Shown here piece after piece: positions 8,606 to 59,095 of a DNA stretch of 64,000 nucleotides. Origin of the DNA: Prorocentrum cordatum. Its lineage: Eukaryota; Sar; Dinophyceae; Prorocentrales; Prorocentraceae. The position numbers and the translations under genes were made by a program. The stretch spans positions 142,501 to 206,500 of the forward strand of contig CAUYUJ010016366.1 in the NCBI GenBank assembly GCA_963575745.1, in the 5' to 3' direction. The notes beneath the pieces are model-generated. The model was not told where the DNA came from, searched no databases, and was given only the letters and a program-made list of their open reading frames with translations. Each line of letters begins with the position of its first letter. The stretch's first letter is position 1.

Positions 8606-8662
8606 AAGGTCGCACGGCCCTCCTCGGCTACAGGATTGCTTTACCCCCCAAGTTCAATTCGG

Positions 8663-8823
8663 GGTTGGACAGGCCTCCTACCCTGACACGTCGATTCGGG
8701 AACTGGCCGTTTTCGCTTCGCGAGAGGGCGTCGCGGCCGTCATTTTTGCGGGTCCAGGTCCGTCGGTGTCGGTCCCAGGCCGTTTTCACTAAGGGGAGGT
8801 CTACTAAAGGGAGGTGCGTCCAC
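8663..8823 (+). mobile_element. Introner-like element, GGACAGAACC family, copy 1
   Basis: It shares CTGACACGTCGATTCGGGAACTGG, a CGAGAGGGCGTCGCGGCCGT block and a TTTTCACTAA block with the copies at 20021-20192 and 50141-50313 and the inverted copy at 51961-52120. Its ends are inverted repeats (GGTTGGACAGGCCTCC versus GGTGGACGCACCTCC). The same family sits inside introns of both main genes, which supports an intron-forming element. 8824-9105 holds no feature I can name. Confidence 0.8.
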
Positions 8824-9105
8824 CGCCGATCAATTGTCTCGTCGAACCTACGACAAATCGGTAGAACGCTCCGCAGATCTACGGAACCTTCGACGCATTC
8901 CTCCCAGAGTGGGTTCACAGGGCAAGTTTTTGGCACATCAACTCTGTGTAGTCGGCCTCCGACTCGAATGGAGGAAAGAAATTCTGGAGGGCAGAGTTCC
9001 TGGAGGCGTTTCGCCGTGCTCGGGCTCCAGGGGCCCCTTCCCGGGGCCCGCGGGGCCAGCAGCACACGCGGCTCGGGATCCAAAGCCAGCCCCGAGGGCC
9101 GCCCC

Positions 9106-9175
9106 GCTCTGGAACGCTCCCGAGAGCGTTCTGGCACGCTGTGGAACGGCCGCGATGGCCGCACCCGGACGCATC
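9106..9175. mobile_element. TTCCRGAACGTTCTG repeat, short copy
   Basis: CTCTGGAACGCTCCCGAGAG followed by GTGGAACGGCCGCGATGGCC resembles the repeats at 7290-7405 and 38746-38855 but is shortened. It lies directly before the second long-TIR element. Confidence 0.4.
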
Positions 9176-9178
9176 GCC

Positions 9179-9350
9179 CAGATTCACCACCCACCAAACC
9201 ACCCCAACCCAACCCGAAGGCTCAAATTTACCCTCGATTTCCAGTGGGGGGGGGTCGGGAAACATCGAAAAATCACATGTGGAATCCTTACCCCCCCAAC
9301 CCGAAATTCGGGTCTTCGGGTTGGGTTGGGGTGGTCTGGTAGGTAGTCAC
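9179..9350. mobile_element. Long-TIR element, AACCCAACCCGAAG family, copy 2
   Basis: Same ends and internal order as 7572-7752, with the TIRs largely unchanged and the internal part about 10 bp shorter. Two near-identical copies 1.6 kb apart imply recent activity or local duplication. Confidence 0.85.
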
Positions 9351-9420
9351 AGATGGTCCGCCGGCTCTCTGACCCTTCGCCAGCGTGATCGTCGGGTGCG
9401 GGCCCACGGCAGGCCGGTCA

Positions 9421-9545
9421 CAACTGGGGGAGCTGTGGCCCTTACCCCCCTGGGGGACCCAGCGATTTCGACACCCCTCTCGAGAGAGAGATCGTCGATG
9501 CGATGGGTTCCCCCAGCGGGGTAAGGACCACAGCTCCCCCAGTTG
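9421..9545. mobile_element. Near-perfect 125-bp fold-back element
   Basis: CAACTGGGGGAGCTGTGGCC at the left is answered by GGACCACAGCTCCCCCAGTTG at the right, and the pairing continues inward through the TTACCCC and TGGGGGACCCA blocks to a CTCTCGAGAG centre. The arm sequence reappears once more at 9663-9690, on the other side of the GGA array at 9594-9662, so the array may have been inserted between or captured by related arms. Confidence 0.75.
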
Positions 9546-19171: not shown

Positions 19172-20267
19172 ATGTCTGAGACCCCAGCGCCTTTGTCTAG
19201 GGGGGACCTCACGCAGGCTCTGGCGGAGATGCCGGGCCAGGGCGAGTCGAGGAAGCAGTTCCAGATCCTGGACCCCAGGACCAAGAAGCCGATCGAGGCG
19301 AGGTCCCCGCTCGTGGAGCCGCTCAGGAGGGCGGAGCGTAAGGCAGGGCTCGTCTCGACCCCTCTGGCTCGATTCGGTTCGATCTTGACCGACTCCCGCT
19401 CCGATTCGATTCGACCTCGGATTCCGAACTGGGTGTCGGCGTTTCAATGGAGGCTTTGACCAGCCCTCCGATTTCTGCTGATCCGATTCATGCCGATCGC
19501 CGATCCGAGGTATTGGAGTGAATCTGGGCTCTCCAGCAAGGCCATGGCCATCATCGACCCCGGCAGCGGCGACGTCGTTCGCGCCCTGGACTTCTCCCTC
19601 CCGAGGCTGGGTGCATCCCCAGATCTCCGAGGGTATGACTATTTCAGTCCGGGCGTGTTTCCTCGGTTTCGTCCTCTTGGGCCCGTCGCTGGGTCCCAGG
19701 ACCGTCACCAATTTGTGCCAGGACGAAAACTACACCGGGGGAACGGGTCGGGACCTCTGGGGCCCGGGACCTTTCTTTTTTATGCCAAAAGTTCGGCGGA
19801 TACTTAGGTCTCGATCCGATCGATCCGCTTCGATATAGGTTGTAGCAGGCCTGATCCAGCTCGATTCCGAGATTCCGTCGAAGCGATGCAGCCCAGTGCC
19901 TGCGCGGCGTCGTTGTGCATCCCCAGCGCAACCGGTCCGATTCGGTTTCGATCCCGTGCCGGTGCAGCCCGATCTGAGGCAAACTTCGATCCGATCCGAT
20001 TCCCGATCCGATGTCTACTGTCGGGGGTGGACAGAACCCCTAACAGTGACACGTCGATTCGTGAATTGTCCGTTTTCGGTTCTCGAGAGGGCGCCGTGGC
20101 CGTTATTTTCCAGGCTTGCGCCCGCCAGGTTTGGGCCTCAGGTCGTTTTCACTAAACCACGTTTTACTAACGGGGGGTCTGCCCATCCCCGATACTGACC
20201 CTGCCCGAGGGGCGCCGGTTCCTTCACGATCACCGACCCGCGCAGCGGCGCCGCCATCAAGGCCTGA
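19172..20267 (+). CDS. Gln-rich gene, three exons with repeated FxIxDPxxxxIxA motif
   Basis: Exon a (from about 19172 to 19342) reads MSETPAPLSRGDLTQALAEM, then FQILDPRTKKPIEA and a segment ending RRAERK. Exon b (19541-19605) reads AMAIIDPGSGDVVRA and ALDFSLP. Exon c (20210-20267) reads GAGSF and TITDPRSGAAIKA followed by TGA. The best in-frame introns are 19343-19540 (AAG|GC donor, AAG|GCC acceptor) and 19606-20209 (GAG|GC donor, GAG|GG acceptor). Each has the same short word at both ends (AAGGC; CCCGAGG). The three 14-residue motifs align without gaps and match LQMLDPAS in the 11.15 kb exon. Human eIF4G has a similar RIRDPNQGG stretch as I recall it, so an eIF4G-like or PABP-linked translation factor is a possible but weak reading. 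The TGA follows AAG|GC, so a further GC donor instead of a true end is possible. Confidence 0.6.
19343..19540 (+). other. GC-AG intron, 198 nt, GATTCGA-rich
   Basis: Begins GCAGGGCTCGTCTCGACC and ends GGGCTCTCCAGCAAG. AAGGC is present at both junctions, so removal leaves GAG CGT AAG GCC ATG in frame. The interior is rich in GATTCGA/GATCCGA words, shared with 19800-20015 and 40990-41200. Confidence 0.55.
19606..20020 (+). other. First part of the second intron, older elements
   Basis: 19620-19800 resembles the CCAGAGATCC family core (GGGCCCGTCGCTGGGTCCCA, GGGAACGGGTCGGGACCTCT). 19800-20015 is a GATCCGATTCGA-rich segment resembling 40990-41200 (CTCGATTCCGAGATTCCG, GCGGCGTCGTTGTGCATCC). The intron is therefore a stack of at least three insertions, the last being the GGACAGAACC element at 20021. 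Confidence 0.45.
20021..20192 (+). mobile_element. Introner-like element, GGACAGAACC family, copy 2
   Basis: The left TIR TCGGGGGTGGACAGAACCCC and the inverted right end TCGGGGATGGGCAGACCCCC agree at 17 of 20 positions. It shares CAGTGACACGTCGATTCGTG and CAGGCTTGCGCCCGCCAGG with the copy in the TPPP-like gene. It ends 17 nt before the exon c acceptor. Confidence 0.85.
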
Positions 20268-36539: not shown

Positions 36540-37260
36540 ATCGCCGCGCCGCTCAGCGCCCCGTTCCCCGAGGCCTCGCGCACCTGGTGCGCCTCTTTTG
36601 CGTCGCTGAGAACATTCCATCCCGGAGCGAGCTCCGAGCGCGAGCTCGACAGGAATCGGGGGCGGCAAAGAGGGGGGTGATGACTAGGGGGGGTGATATC
36701 ATGGCGGGGGCCATGATATTTCCCCAGATGTCATGCCTCCTCTCCTTATTCCATTACGTCCCTGGCCCCCCCGCTGGGCCGCTCACGTGCCGCCGATCAC
36801 GACTTGCACCCCCCCCTCTTTGACGCCCCCCTCTTTGCCCCTCCCGAAGAAATAGCTCGGCCTCTGGCTCGGCCCCAGCGCAGCCGGCGAGTCATGGAGC
36901 GAGCCTCTCGCTAGATGCGTTGACCGCGGCATCCCCTCAGCTGCTCAAGGCGTTCCTGGTGGGGTGGCTTCCTTCCTCTTCGACTTGAGGCCGCTGGCGC
37001 CTTCTCCTATGTTCAGTTCGTCCCTCCCCCAGCCAAACTCCCCCGCACTGCGCGGTCCCGCGCCCTGGCAAGCTGTCACTTCGAACCCGGGGCGGGCCCC
37101 TATATTCCAATGTTTGACGTCCACGCGCGTTGCCTCCCTGATCCGCGCTAGCAAGTCCACTCACGACTTTTTTCTCCGATCGGCTTAAGCGCTTGAACGG
37201 CTGGCGACGCCCGCCGCTTAGATGAGCGTTCGCTAGCCAGTCTTCCCTTTCCAGCAGCAG
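36540..37260. other. No supported gene
   Basis: Contains a small perfect hairpin at about 36698 (GATATCATGGC / GCCATGATAT) and two GGGGGGTGAT direct repeats. Otherwise unique sequence without coding signal. Confidence 0.35.
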
Positions 37261-41700: not shown

Positions 41701-41816
41701 GGAAGGGCCCCCAGAAGCCGACGGTCGAGGAAGAGCCTCCGCCCCGATTTCTGGCGCGGCGCCGCGAGGTCTGGGCATTGCCGCCGGGGCGCCTACGGGC
41801 GCTCCGGCCCTGAATC

Positions 41817-42014
41817 GGGCCGAACGAAAGGGGGGGATAGGGAAGAGGGGGGGGTTACGAAATCTGCTGCGTGCAGCTGGTTGCGGCCCCGCCGCCGGGG
41901 CCCGTTCCTCGATACATGGGCGCCTCGCGGCGCGGGGAGGCGCCGGGAAAAGCAGCTGCGTGAGCCGATTCTCTGCGCTGCCCTTTGCTGATCCCCCCCT
42001 TTCGTTCCCCCCGA
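41817..42014 (+). mobile_element. Introner-like element, CGAAAGGGGGG family, copy 1
   Basis: GGGCCGAACGAAAGGGGGGG at the left, CCCCCCCTTTCGTTCCCCC at the right. The interior GGTTACGAAATCTGCTGCGT and GATACATGGGCGCCTC is shared with 49372-49562 (inside the TPPP-like gene) and 52680-52869. Two extra copies of the right end follow at about 42065 and 42140 (CCCGCTAAAGCG, CCCCGACTAAAGCG). Confidence 0.85.
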
Positions 42015-42769: not shown

Positions 42770-42900
42770 AAGAGGTGCCAACATCGCTGCATTGGGGCAT
42801 CCTTGGAGGCCCGCGTCGCCACGGACGGACTCGCTTCGGGATTCTGGTCAGAACGCACACTGGGAGAGGTCCGGGGAGTAGCGGTACAGTCGGCACGGAT
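42770..42900 (+). mobile_element. GGTACC/TGCC TIR family, relative of the TPPP intron 3 element
   Basis: ATTCTGGTCAGAACGCACAC followed by GTCCGGGGAGTAGCGGTACA is shared with the element at 50652-50819. The ends are weakly inverted (GTGCCAACATCGCTG versus GTGCCGACTGTACCGCT). Confidence 0.6.
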
Positions 42901-49333: not shown

Positions 49334-51428
49334 ATGTCGACGGAGCTGGAGCAGGTGTTCGCGGCCTTCTCGGGCCGGGCGAAAGGGGGGGACTGGGAAA
49401 GGGGGGGTTACGAAATTTGCTGCATGCAGCTGGTTTCGGCCTCGCCGAGGGGCCCATTCCTCGATACATAGCCGCCTCTGGCGCCGGGAGGCGCCGGGAA
49501 AATCAGCTACGTGAGCTGATTCTCAAACCCCCCCTTTGCTATCCCCCCCTTTCGCCCGACCCGACCTTCTGCGGGAAAGAAAAGGACATGGACGGCAAAA
49601 CCTTTATCAAACTGTGCAAGGACTGTAAGCTTGTGGACAAGAAGCTCACAGCCACGGACGTGGACCTGATCTTTGCCAAAGTCGCGCCGAAGGGCCAGCG
49701 CCGCATCAGTTTCGAGCAATTCGGCACAGCTTTGGAACATCTGGCCACGAAGAAGGGGACGTCTCCAGAGGATGTGAAGTCTTCGATCACGCAATCATCA
49801 GGACCAACGCTCAGTGGAACGCAGGCCGACGCAGTGCGCTTCCACGATGACAAGTCCACCTACACGGGGACGCACGTCAACGGCGGGCCCGACCGCGTGG
49901 CCAAGGGCACCGGCACCGCGACGCAGCTCGCTTCGTCCGGCATGGGCACAGGCCACAGCGGCAGCCACCCGGAGCCACGCCTCGCGGAGCCACGCCTCTC
50001 GGAGCCACGCCACTCGGAACCGCGCCACTCGCAGCCCGGGTCTGCGGCGGGGGCGTGCGGCGGAGCCCGGGTGTTGCCAGAGGAGTGCCCCGGGCCCGAG
50101 CTGCCCCCGGGAGTTCCAAGGAGGCGCCCACGGGCCCCAGTCGGGGGCGGACAGAACCCCCAACAGTGACACGTCGATTAGTGACTTGTCCGTGTTCGGT
50201 TCTCGAGGGGGCGCCGCGGCCGTTCTTTTCCAGGCTTGCGCCCGCCAGGAGTGGGCCTCGGGTCGTTTGCACGAAACCACGTTTTACGAAAGGGGGGTCG
50301 GTCCATCCCCGATCCAGAGCACCCACGGCGAGGCCCAGATGGCCCCAGAGGTTCCAGGATGGAGCGACAAGCCGGGGGCACCTTGGGCCAGGAGCACCTC
50401 TGGCAACCCCCGGGGAGAGCGGGTCGTGAAAATTCCGGCAGAAGTCTTCGACGGCATCTGCCAGCAGCTGCGGACCAGCGAGCTCCTCGGGCCACCCGCG
50501 GCCCAGGCCTTGGAGAAGGCCGCCGGCGTGAAGGGTGCGCCGTCGTCGCCGCCGCCAGGGGCGAAGGCGACGGAGCTGCGGACCAAGGTGGCCGACTCTC
50601 GAGAGGACCTCGAGACGGCTTTGGCGCGAAGCAAGGCGGAGGTTGAGGAGCTCAGAGGAGGAAAAGGTACCATACCGCTACCCTTCGCTCGTTTTCCCCT
50701 TTTTGGGCCTCCTGGGAGGCCCTCGTCGCCACCGCTGGATTCGCCTCGAAATTCTGGTCAGAACGCACCCCGGCGGAGGTTCAGGGAGTAGCGGTATCGG
50801 TACCTTTTGCTCTCCCCAGGAGCTGCGGAAAGTTGTGGCGCAGAAGGACGAGGTCATCGCCCAGCTGAAGCGTGACGCCGGGAAGAGCTCGACCACACCA
50901 GCTGCATCGCCCAAGCCTGAGGGCGAAGCCGCCGCCGCGAAAGCGCCGTCCAAGGGTCCCGCTACCACGCCGCCATCCCATGGCCCAGCGGCTGCGGCGG
51001 CCGCTGCGACTTCCTTGCAGGACGCCTTCTCGAACTTCGCCGACGGAAAGCCAGATATGGACCAGAAGTCGTTCGTCAAGCTGTGCAAGGACGTGAAGCT
51101 TGTGGACAAGAGTTTCACCACCACGGACGCAGACCTTATCTTCACAAAAGTCGTGACGAAGGGCCAACGCAGGATCGATTTCGGCCATTTCAGCGCCGCC
51201 TTGGACCAGGTCGCGGCGAAGAAGGGCACCAGCGCAGAGGCCATCCGTGACGCGATCTGCAGCGCAGGGGGTCCGACGCTGAACGGCACGGTCGCCGACC
51301 ACGTGAAATTCCACGACGACAAGTCCACCTACACAGGGACGCACGTCAATGGTGGCCCCGAGTCAGTGCGTAAAGGTGGCGGCACAGCAACGCAGCTCGC
51401 CTCGGGCGGTATGGCCTCAGGCCATTAG
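49334..51428 (+). CDS. Double p25-alpha (TPPP-like) protein, four exons
   Basis: Exon 1 (from ATG 49334) reads MSTELEQVFAAFSG. Exon 2 (from about 49565 or 49588 to about 50060) reads DMDGKTFIKLCKDCKLVDKK, TDVDLIFAKVAPKGQRRISF and DKSTYTGTHVNGGP, the p25-alpha signature, and ends in four EPR[LH][AS] pentapeptides. Exon 3 (about 50440-50647) is a coiled coil (EVFDGICQQL to KAEVEE). Exon 4 (50820-51428) completes it (LRKVVAQKDEVIAQLKRDAG), has an Ala/Pro linker and a second p25-alpha domain with the same motifs, ending GMASGH and TAG. p25-alpha proteins bind microtubules; protist members occur in flagella and, as apicortin, in the apical complex, so a cytoskeletal role is inferred. Two p25-alpha domains joined by a coiled coil is unusual, since animal TPPPs have one. 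Intron 3 is GA-AG in phase 0; the exon 2/3 borders are approximate. Confidence 0.85.
49372..49562 (+). mobile_element. Introner-like element in TPPP-like gene, intron 1
   Basis: The left end GGGCCGGGCGAAAGGGGGGG and the inverted right end GGGTCGGGCGAAAGGGGGGG differ by one base, and the match extends to about 30 bp. CCTTCT lies immediately outside both ends (49365-49370 and 49565-49570). Reading through gives a stop at 49471, so the element must be spliced out if the gene is active. Excision of 49371-49570 would join TTC to TGC and give AAFCGKEKDMDGK, with exactly the spacing of the second domain (NFADGKPDMDQK). No AG lies at that acceptor. A GC-AG alternative (CGG|GCGAAAG to GAAAAG|GAC) is also in frame but two residues shorter. 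Confidence 0.85.
50064..50432 (+). mobile_element. TPPP-like gene intron 2: GGACAGAACC element inside longer inverted arms
   Basis: The core 50141-50313 is a GGACAGAACC family element (TCGGGGGCGGACAGAACCCC against inverted TCGGGGATGGACCGACCCCC). Outside it the inversion continues: GTGTTGCCAGAGGAGTGCCC on the left is answered by CCTCTGGCAACCCCCGGGG on the right, with a few gaps. The intron is therefore essentially one imperfect hairpin of about 370 bp. The splice sites are not resolved. Confidence 0.75.
50648..50819 (+). mobile_element. TPPP-like gene intron 3: GGTACC TIR element, GA-AG intron
   Basis: The left end CAGAGGAGGAAAAGGTACC continues ATACCGCTACCC. The inverted right end is CTGGGGAGAGCAAAAGGTACC continuing GATACCGCTACTCCC. 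GAGGAGCT stands left (50645-50652) and AGGAGCTG right (50819-50826), a target-site duplication. Splicing GAG|GAGCTC to CCCCAG|GAGCTG restores VEELRKVVAQ in the coiled coil without gain or loss. The donor is GA and the acceptor is AG|G. Confidence 0.85.
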
Positions 51429-51760: not shown

Positions 51761-51960
51761 GCGGTTTTCGCGATTCCGATGTCTTTTGGTAGAGACAGAT
51801 CTCCGGTGGTAGCGATCTTTTGATTATGACGCCCCCGCCTGCATTTCGATCGAAAGCAGCCACGGTGGTGGATTATATCTGCAATGAGCCATCGCTTGAT
51901 CGGCCCCTGAGCACATTACTCTTCTCTCCTCTCCTCTTCCCCCGTCCTCCACTACTCGGC

Positions 51961-52120
51961 GGTGGACAAACCTCCCTTTAGTAAACCACCCTGAAGTGAA
52001 AACGGCCTAGGGCCGAAACCGACGGACCTGGACCGGCAAGAATGACGGCCGCGACGCCCTCTCGCGAGCCGAAAACGGCCAATTCGTTACTCGACGTGTC
52101 AGGGTAGGAGGTCTATCAAC
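51961..52120 (-). mobile_element. Introner-like element, GGACAGAACC family, minus copy
   Basis: The reverse complement gives CCTGACACGTCGAGTAACGA, CGAGAGGGCGTCGCGGCCGT, GTCCAGGTCCGTCGGTTTCG and CACTTCAGGGTGGTTTACTA. It is closest to the 8663 copy by its GGTCCAGGTCCGTCGG block. Confidence 0.8.
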
Positions 52121-52314
52121 CTCCGAATTACTTGCTTCTCCTCCCTCCTGCGTGCCATCGGCAGCAGCTTTCCCCCCTCCGCTCGGACAGCCATGCCGCT
52201 GCTCGGGCTGCTCGGCTGCTGGCCCGAGCCTCTTGCAGGCGCCCCCGCCACAAGGGCGGTCGCGTGCCGTGCGATCGCGCACGAGCAGAGTTGAGAAGAC
52301 GCGAGGCCGCAAGG

Positions 52315-52432: not shown

Positions 52433-52679
52433 TGGCACCGAACCTCGCCGGGCCAACGCAGCGCCCCTCCCGGCGGGCACGCCTCGCCCAACCCTCTTTG
52501 GAGCACGCAGCACGCTCGAAGCCACATCCCGGGCCTCCGGCACGCTGCGGCCCGTCGGGCGGCGGGAGCGCCGGCGCCCCGGTCCGACCGCCGCGCGCCG
52601 CCGCCCGCGCGCCAGGCCGGGCGAGCGTCCAAGAGGGAGGCAGGAAGGCAAGCTGGAGGACAAGCTGGGAGGGAGGATC

Positions 52680-52869
52680 GGGCCGAACGCAAGGGGGGGA
52701 TAGGGAAAGGGGGGTTACGAAATTTGCTGCGTGCAGCTGGTTTCGGCCCCACCGAGGGGCCCATTCCTCGATACATAGCCGCCTCCGGCGCCGAGAGGCG
52801 CCGGGAAAATCCGCTACGTGAGCTGATGTTCAACCCCCCCCTTTGCTATCCCCCCCTTTCGCCCGACCC
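52680..52869 (+). mobile_element. Introner-like element, CGAAAGGGGGG family, copy 3
   Basis: GGGCCGAACGCAAGGGGGGG against inverted GGGTCGGGCGAAAGGGGGGG. The interior is very close to the copy in TPPP intron 1 (GGTTACGAAATTTGCTGCGT, TTTCGGCC, GATACATAGCCGCCTC). It lies upstream of the short exon at 53.1 kb and may be part of an intron of that gene. Confidence 0.85.
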
Positions 52870-53094
52870 GAGAGGAGGCGGAGGTCAGGGAAGGACAACG
52901 GCCGCCTACACTTGGCCTGGCCCCCGGCAGGAACAGCCTGGGCCACAGATGCGTTTCTGACGTTCGCCTCGCGCGCTGCCGCTTACACTCGGCTCGCTCC
53001 CCAGCAAAGAGTTTGGGCGGGGCACGTTAGGGGAGGAACTATTTCAATGGCTCTCCCTTTCATTTGCTGTTCCCCTCCGCTCGGCATGTATGCA

Positions 53095-54700: not shown

Positions 54701-54984
54701 CCGCCCGCGGCGGCCGGCAACTGCCCTCGCGCGCCACGGCCGCCTGCTGTCCTCGCCATTAGTAGGAGAGGACCAAGGACCGATGTTCGGTCTTCGAGGT
54801 TTTTTATCGCGTTTGGTCTTCCCTGTTGGGCCTCCAGGGTGCCTCTTACAGCCACGGCTGGATTCGCTACGACGTCCTCGCCGAGGTGCGCGCCTCCTGA
54901 CAGGCGCGCCCTCGCCACCGCAGGAGTGCTGTAGGCTCGCGTCGAGCTGGGTCCGCGGGGCCAGAAGGGGGGAACTGGGAAGCG

Positions 54985-58400: not shown

Positions 58401-58507
58401 ACGTCGACATGGGGGTTAACCAAGGTTTTAACGGCCCCAGCCAGAGCCGAGTTTCTTTTTCCAGTGGAACGTCAGACGGCTTGAGTGGCTTGAGTGTTGC
58501 TGCGCTG

Positions 58508-58620
58508 CTCCCCCTCCTCCTCCTCCTCCTCCTCCTCCTCCTCCTCCTCCTCCTCCTCCTCCTCCTCCTCCTCCTCCTCCTCCTCCATCTCCTCCTCCTC
58601 CTCCTCCGCCCCCTCCCTCT
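58508..58620. repeat. (TCC)n microsatellite
   Basis: CTC/TCC run of about 75 bp grading into CTCCGCC. Confidence 0.95.
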
Positions 58621-58794
58621 GAGGGGGATGAGGAGAGGAGGAAGAGGAGAAAGAGAACGAGGAGTAGGACGAGGAGGAGGAGGGGAAGGGGGAGGGGGAG
58701 GGAGGAGGAGAACGAGGAGGAGGACGGGGACCCCTCCTCCTTATTCTCCTCCTCCTTCCCGCCCTCGTCTCAATGGCTTTGGGCCCCATTCACC

Positions 58795-59095
58795 CTGCCA
58801 TGCTGTGCGACCGCGGGCTCCAGGCGGCCAAAGCGCCTACCAGGCGTTCTACAGCTCGGCGTCGGCGCTGACGCTGGGAGCGCCCCCGCCGCGGGGGGGG
58901 GGGGGGGCGGAGGCGGAGGCGGAGGAGGAGGAGGAGGAGGAGGAGGAGGAGGAGGAGGAGGAGGAGGAGGAGGAGGAGGAGGAGGAGGAGGAGGAGGAGG
59001 AGGAGGAGAGAACCGACGTGCCTCCGCTGCCAGAAGGCGCCAGCAAAACGAGTCCCAACACGCCCATGTTGTTTCCACGTCAGAGGTTGCTCTAA
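58795..59095 (+). CDS. Possible exon(s) around a (GGA)n array
   Basis: The + strand reads QSAYQAFYSSASALTLGAPP before the (GGA)n run (58915-59005), and TDVPPLPEGASKTSPNTPML/FPRQRLL with a stop after it, in the same frame. Either the array is coded as poly-Glu or it is an intron. Not recognised. Confidence 0.35.

Follow-up and report, generated by a model that had tools for sequence, protein, structure and literature searches.

Introners have been reported as enriched in the introns of the dinoflagellate Prorocentrum cordatum in the available part of PMC10666404, and the available text of Gozashti et al. 2022 describes introner families with terminal inverted repeats (TIRs) and target-site duplications (TSDs) that take splice sites from the TSD in several ways; in Symbiodinium microadriaticum these TSDs are 4 bp long (PMC9860276). 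The introners of dinoflagellates studied by Roy et al. 2023 are summarised in a review (PMC11453091), and from Amoebophrya non-canonical introners have been described that carry inverted repeats as well as direct ones (PMC7789003). Donors in the published P. cordatum gene set are GC (51.4%), GT (24.7%) or GA (23.8%), together 99.9%, and 79.7% of the acceptors read AGG (PMC10666404 Table 2); the gene pipeline behind this set had been modified so that GC and GA donors were allowed, according to the accessible part of the same paper. Introners being already reported in dinoflagellates including P. cordatum, the gene described here is a further example. A search of part of the literature found, among the papers listed, no publication devoted to the element families concerned (families 1–3).

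The window is the whole stretch of P. cordatum DNA that was analysed, 64,000 nucleotides with a GC content of ~60%. On its plus strand, at 49334–51428, lies a TPPP-like gene, broken at three sites, that encodes a linker as well as two p25-alpha (TPPP) domains (Table 1). Excision of each of the three inserts together with one TSD yielded a single open frame of 456 codons, and in a protein search the joined 456-aa product exhibited 73% identity over 99% of length to P0001, a protein of 438 aa from the MERC set with the same two-domain architecture. The MERC set is assembled from marine metatranscriptomes. Site 1 is uninterrupted in the homologues P0001, P0168 and P0169; P0168 reads MAELEQVFVSFCGKEKDMDGKTF where the joined product reads MSTELEQVFAAFCGKEKDMDGKTF, and its residues FCGKEKDMDGK were matched exactly at this site once insert 1 was removed. 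At site 3, AEVEELRKVVAQKDE is identical in P0001, P0007 and the joined product. Because homologues read across sites 1 and 3, the inserts there interrupt a once-continuous coding sequence. The linker at site 2 is too variable among the homologues for base-by-base alignment. No paralogue was found in the 110 kb upstream, the 64-kb window, the 10 kb downstream or the genome loci L001–L028.

Table 1 Coordinates of the TPPP-like gene parts, the inserted elements and their copies within the window
Feature	Position	Strand	Details
Inner family 2 relative	8659–8829		TSD TCAAT twice
Inner family 2 copy	20021–20192		90% identity to inner element; TSD TACTG twice
Older family-1 copy	41815–42014	+	No clear TSD (CTGAA/CTACT)
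Exon 1	49334–49369	+	Codons MSTELEQVFAAF; 3' end is the 5' TSD copy CCTTC (49365–49369)
Insert 1	49370–49564	+	195-bp MITE, family 1; ends TCGGG..CCCGA
p25-alpha domain 1	49585–49956	+	Pfam PF05517, E 2.1e-36
Start codon of P0162	49588–49590	+	Internal ATG, MDGKTF; downstream of insert 1
Intron 2 implied by P0162	50065–50417	+	GC..AG|A; one base off the precise junction
Insert 2, outer element	50067–50413	+	Ends CCGGGTGTTG..CAACCCCCGG
Insert 2, inner nested element	50141–50312	+	172 bp; TIR TCGGGGGCGGACAGA
Predicted intron 3	50648–50819	+	GA..AG|G: GTTGAG|GAGCTC...CTCTCCCCAG|GAGCTG
Insert 3	50652–50818	+	Ends TCAGAGGAGGAAAAGGTACC..GGTACCTTTTGCTCTCCCCA
p25-alpha domain 2	51051–51426	+	Pfam PF05517, E 3.5e-32
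Inner family 2 relative	51956–52126		TSD ACTAC/ATTAC
Family-1 copy	52678–52871	+	Good second copy, beyond the gene; flanked by the TSD GAGGA on both sides; reading on + would be GA..AG|G

The three sites hold four short TIR elements of ~170–350 bp, with a nested pair at the second site, where the preliminary description had placed one element within longer inverted arms. All four are flanked by a 5-bp TSD, exact for inserts 1 and 3 and conserved at 4/5 positions for both parts of insert 2. For insert 1, 17 of 18 TIR positions are matched (TCGGGYCGGGCGAAAGGGGGG), the TSD is CCTTC on both sides (3' copy at 49565–49569) and the identity to the genome copies in L011 and L014 amounts to 97.9%; being ~98% identical to other copies, this insert is young. 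The outer element of insert 2 has arms that are 84% complementary over 45 nt and the TSD GGAGC (50062–50066)/GGAGA (50414–50418), whereas the inner element exhibits the TIR TCGGGG..GGACAGA with 14/18 positions matched and the TSD CCCAG/TCCAG. Insert 3, with a TIR ending ..AAAAGGTACC and 14-bp arms of 93% complementarity, is flanked by an exact GGAGC duplication (50647–50651 and 50819–50823). The preliminary description had counted three families in one gene. Several families are indeed present, but with four elements, three of which have TCGGG..CCCGA-type ends in common, so that these families are probably related. As T..A type ends and 5-bp TSDs are shared, with a reservation about the outer part of insert 2, related transposases are suggested.

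Further copies in the window, stated by the preliminary description for each family, were confirmed for family 1 and for the inner family 2, whose TSDs are exact in 2 of its 4 window copies and match at 4/5 in the remaining two. Family 3 is represented in the window by diverged partial relatives only, at 42792–42886 (82% over 95 bp) and 54816–54867 (76% over 54 bp), and the outer part of insert 2 gave weak short matches but no second copy in a window search. Better family-3 copies are located elsewhere in the genome, for example in L028 with the TSD TCTAC twice. The outer-element family is defined by a single relative, in L002, with the ends TCGGGTGTTGCTAGA..TCTAGCAACACCCGA and the TSD ATTCT twice; compared to it, the first base of the outer element has changed from T to C and the last base from A to G. 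For relatives of this element in L011, L019 and L023 no clear TSD was found. Of the outer and the inner family at site 2, only a few copies were seen. In the P. cordatum genome, families 1 and 3 occur in large numbers: the 11-base core of family 1 (CGAAAGGGGGG) gave 39,920 matches in the 4.128-Gb genome compared to 6,024 for the reversed control, and the 18-base end of family 3 gave 1,603 matches compared to 5 for the reversed-pattern control.

We scored the TSDs of 23 family-1 copies, comprising the 3 in the window and 20 fetched from the genome by an exact core at both ends, a selection that leans towards younger copies. An exact 5-bp TSD was present in 16 of the 23, compared to 0.19% at control offsets. 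The exceptions were, in the window, the copy at 41815 and, among those fetched from the genome, the copies in L009, L010, L019, L021, L023 and L024, with L010 showing a 7-bp repeat instead and L019 a match of 4/5. Family-3 TSDs were scored in those 13 of 29 distinct copies for which both ends were found, the pattern having missed the left end, or the right end not being CCCCA, in the other 16; they were exact in 7 and at 4/5 or better in 10 of the 13, where the chance level with eight offsets tried was 3.6% for exact matches, 13.2% for 4/5 and 16.8% for at least 4/5. A looser TSD search on further copies, leaving the ends free within 25 bp, was kept out of these statistics. The ~60% GC of the window and its 864 inverted-repeat pairs (14 nt or longer, no more than 1500 bp apart) might suggest that the inserts are chance inverted repeats of GC-rich DNA. 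This reading, to which we attach practically no weight, is refuted by the perfect TSD that 16 of the 23 family-1 copies carry, by genome counts far above the reversed controls and by a shuffle test, in which elements of ~120–420 bp with TCGG..CCGA ends, a TIR match of 13/18 or better and a perfect 5-bp TSD were found four times in the window and not once in 200 Markov-shuffled windows. TIRs, a fixed 5-bp TSD and, for families 1 and 3, many dispersed copies are the characteristics of MITEs, and the interruption of the gene by non-autonomous DNA-transposon families is well supported.

The preliminary description had gone further and taken all three introns of the gene to be TIR elements, as direct evidence that introners build introns here. 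TIR inserts do interrupt the gene at three sites, but the view that all three are introns is supported only in part, as no placement of the precise junction of insert 1 has G[TCA]..AG ends; moreover, direct evidence is too strong a term, because removing an element with one TSD restores the ancestral frame regardless of splicing. That inserts serve as introns is what we infer from their sequence. In the account that we consider likely, related short families of non-autonomous DNA transposons with T..A ends and 5-bp TSDs would insert genome-wide, and for insertions into coding exons the target 5-mer would set the fate. The final A of the element followed by a TSD starting with G would form an AG acceptor, while a TSD of the type GG[T/C/A]NN would additionally provide a GT, GC or GA donor and the AG|G context, such that the insert would be spliced out and the original coding sequence restored. 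Insert 3 (TSD GGAGC) would satisfy this rule as a working GA..AG intron; insert 2 (TSD GGAGC, with its nested MITE) would have satisfied it at insertion, its end bases changing later; and insert 1 (TSD CCTTC) would fail it, either disrupting the amino terminus of domain 1 or being bypassed via sites off the TSD. The account builds on direct observations, namely the elements, their TSDs and families, the restored frame and the uninterrupted homologous proteins, to which it adds the putative 5-mer rule and a prediction of which inserts are spliced.

For insert 3, one placement of the precise junction corresponds to GA..AG|G, derived from element and TSD (predicted intron 3, Table 1). The precise product ranked first among 2350 open in-frame products compared with P0001 and P0007 (968; next 962). 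Other junctions were tried and rejected: GT 50667 paired with CAG|G 50820 shifts the frame, and GT 50642 with CAG|G is in frame but loses the residues VE kept by P0001 and P0007. The best GT..AG product (GT 50667 with AG|T 50833) reached rank 19 with 944 compared to 968, and a GA..AG|T product rank 4 (954), below GA..AG|G at the TSD. Insert 3 is thus most likely a working GA..AG intron, and its sequence is convincing as that of an introner-type intron. In family 3, G follows ..CCCCA in 15 of the 24 distinct copies with this end; this completes a CAG behind a pyrimidine-rich tract and is suggestive, although a target preference could have the same effect. Enumeration of all 5-mers as TSDs of elements with TC..GA ends showed that 8.5% (10.6% at 61% GC) can supply G[TCA]..AG in one register or another; GGAGC of inserts 2 and 3 can do so, whereas CCTTC of insert 1 cannot in sense and can as its reverse complement. 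Two spliceable TSDs at three sites have a probability of about 0.03, counting insert 2 with its presumed original ends, and are weak evidence for selection.

The public P. cordatum protein P0162 (162 aa; 'unnamed protein product' / 'Tubulin polymerization-promoting protein') is 100% identical to the joined product over 75% of residues 1–213. Its carboxy terminus ..GACGGSGS corresponds to GGCGGA|AGCGGGTCGTGA in the window sequence, and the intron 2 that it implies (Table 1) leads to a frameshift followed by a stop, whereas precise excision of element and TSD keeps the frame. The public gene model is cut short where the TIR inserts lie: P0162 terminates just past insert 2 and confirms neither intron 3 nor the downstream half of the gene, for whose second domain only P0182 is listed, an entry that carries neither source nor name. 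Because of the pipeline design, a junction outside the accepted donor classes would probably have been missed. The TSD GGAGC of insert 2 probably made a GA..AG|G-type junction originally, the end bases of the element having mutated since; the last base is now G. Product ranking was tried for this junction and rejected, as the linker is variable and the top products were not the precise one.

On a homologue profile with domain 2 as its seed, the precise product of insert 1 ranked first of 2120 (214.0 bits), with the next two, same-length shifts, at 213.0 and 212.2 bits; the small lead of 214.0 compared to 213.0 speaks against the account outlined above. Its seven precise placements read CC..GA, CT..AC, TT..CC, TC..CT, CT..TT, TC..TC and CG..CT, and GT, GC or GA..AG ends were absent from all of them. 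The best G[TCA]..AG product uses a GA..AG|G junction at 49391–49584, off the TSD, and reached rank 89 with 205.4 bits, 8.6 bits below the precise one on the homologue profile; on the general Pfam profile it obtained 133.5 bits compared to 132.7. Removal through this junction is a possible route. At insert 1, 37 of 3616 open combinations were in-frame G[TCA]..AG pairs; such pairs come about easily, and their mere presence says little. Read in antisense, insert 1 with its TSD GAAGG would give GT..AG|G on the minus strand, a coincidence given the p25-alpha gene on the plus strand. An Rfam search gave nothing above the gathering threshold, only MIR820 (39.5 compared to 196 bits) and MIR1858 on the minus strand of the insert, reflecting the hairpin shape only. 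The most likely reading of insert 1 is a MITE that is not spliced or has only recently arrived.

TSD-derived G[TCA]..AG junctions occur in 5 of 34 orientations in family 1 (17 copies with a TSD of at least 4/5), where the 5-mer fractions predict ~3 to 4. Since its end sequences are very frequent and its TSDs rarely offer splice sites, family 1 at least has the appearance of a general MITE and not of an element specialised for making introns. Reading across the joined flanks was uninformative in 21 copies, insert 1 included, as long spanning ORFs are common in GC-rich DNA. Excision of insert 1 from RNA exactly at CCTTC, despite the lack of any GT/GC/GA..AG placement, appears very improbable. 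If it did take place, a core photosynthetic dinoflagellate would possess hairpin- or repeat-guided MITE removal beside its spliceosomal G[TCA]..AG introns, and such removal, as suspected for Amoebophrya, would make exon insertions harmless at any target.

Two other readings of the whole locus have to be weighed. All three inserts could be working introns, insert 1 being removed by non-canonical splicing at CCTTC or via nearby GA/GC..AG sites. The frames downstream are intact and precise excision yields a homologue-like protein, but TSD insertion alone accounts for the restored frame. The RNA of insert 1 is predicted to form a long hairpin joining the TSD copies (z −8.7), a GA..AG|G junction is available at 49391–49584, and in Amoebophrya RNA-supported introns lack conserved end dinucleotides, some of them carrying inverted and direct repeats (PMC7789003, accessible part); in P. 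cordatum, however, GT, GC and GA donors account for 99.9% of the gene set, albeit from a pipeline that accepts those classes, and P0162 begins downstream of insert 1. We regard this reading as improbable.

Alternatively, the locus may be a decaying or silent copy, disabled by inserts 1 and 2 and not translated as one protein, which we consider unlikely, although it deserves serious attention. The 162-aa fragment P0162 with its frameshift after insert 2, and the end bases of insert 2 mutated relative to the L002 copy, argue for it, while the youth of insert 1 and a frame otherwise open over 456 codons argue against it. P0162 also forms a one-member cluster with no other match above 80% identity among the matches listed, an absence that depends on length filters and word matching. 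In three protein searches (candidate lengths 251–798, 502–1596 and 117–372 aa; best 120 of 169, 69 of 69 and best 120 of 161), no other P. cordatum protein was recognised by name among the matches listed, many of which are nameless. There is a weak indication that the intact gene is little expressed. We hold to the target 5-mer account as a whole, with insert 3 spliced, insert 2 eroded and insert 1 not a working intron, as the likely explanation.

Under the target 5-mer account, one gene would present several stages, a TSD-built GA..AG intron, a nested element with eroded splice ends and a young exon insertion, and would illustrate both success and failure of a mobile element in becoming an intron. 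It also provides a simple testable rule, by which an element ending in A with a TSD starting GG[TCA] would give an AG|G intron. Should this be a common origin of G[TCA]..AG introns, the base after the acceptor would have to be the first base of the donor, G, which would help to explain the AGG acceptors of dinoflagellates.

Compared with the introners of Polarella, Symbiodinium and P. cordatum, as presented in the available text of these sources, the elements share short TIRs, short TSDs and many families and, by prediction from sequence, GA/GC donors and a TSD providing one or both splice sites (PMC9860276, PMC10666404, PMC11453091). In contrast to the 4-bp TSDs reported for Symbiodinium microadriaticum in the accessible part of PMC9860276, the TSD is 5 bp here, and most of the sampled family-1 TSDs, including that of insert 1 in sense, cannot give splice sites. 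With MITEs in general, the elements have in common TIRs, a TSD of fixed length, a size of ~170–350 bp and, for families 1 and 3, very many copies. The introners of Amoebophrya resemble the elements in their terminal inverted repeats, direct repeats of 3–5 nt over the boundaries and hairpin formation (PMC7789003, accessible part), and insert 1, as judged from its sequence, shares this anatomy with a 5-nt direct repeat and a long inverted repeat. Whereas the non-canonical junctions of Amoebophrya are supported by RNA-seq (same source and part), those considered here are predicted, and insert 3 is consistent with the GA..AG introns usual in dinoflagellates.

The public Prorocentrum cordatum protein model of the TPPP-like gene, P0162 (window 49588–50417), is a 162-residue fragment. 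As it starts downstream of insert 1 and is frameshifted past insert 2, much of the two-domain protein is absent from the model.

Among the family-3 copies retrieved from the genome (L041–L070), 15 of the 24 distinct copies ending in ..CCCCA were followed by a G, giving CAG at this boundary. This could be due to selection for splicing or to a target preference of the element. Upstream of the window on its contig (C15517, about 111.6–112.0 kb; positions 9099–9468 of the fetched stretch L036), a family-3 element is directly followed by a family-1 element, with a gap of about 5 bp.

Further repeats within the window are listed below. Judged by its sequence, the family-1 element would be a candidate GA..AG|G intron (donor GA, acceptor AG, next base G) if read on the plus strand, and the TIR element perhaps represents an additional family. 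Simple trinucleotide-like repeat runs at about 42.2–42.6, 44.1–46.4 and 48.0–48.3 kb result in long low-complexity ORFs in the ORF list.

Further repeat features of the window
Feature	Position	Properties
TIR element	36656–36847	ends TCGGGGGCGGCAAAGAGG; near-TSD AGGAA/AGAAA
Family-1 element	52678–52871	TSD GAGGA, present twice
Large inverted repeat	58496–59017	arms 132 nt, 87% complementary; spacing 258 nt

On the minus strand of the insert 1 region (49370–49567), two Rfam families of miRNA precursors, MIR820 and MIR1858, gave sub-threshold matches. These probably reflect only the long-hairpin form of the element.
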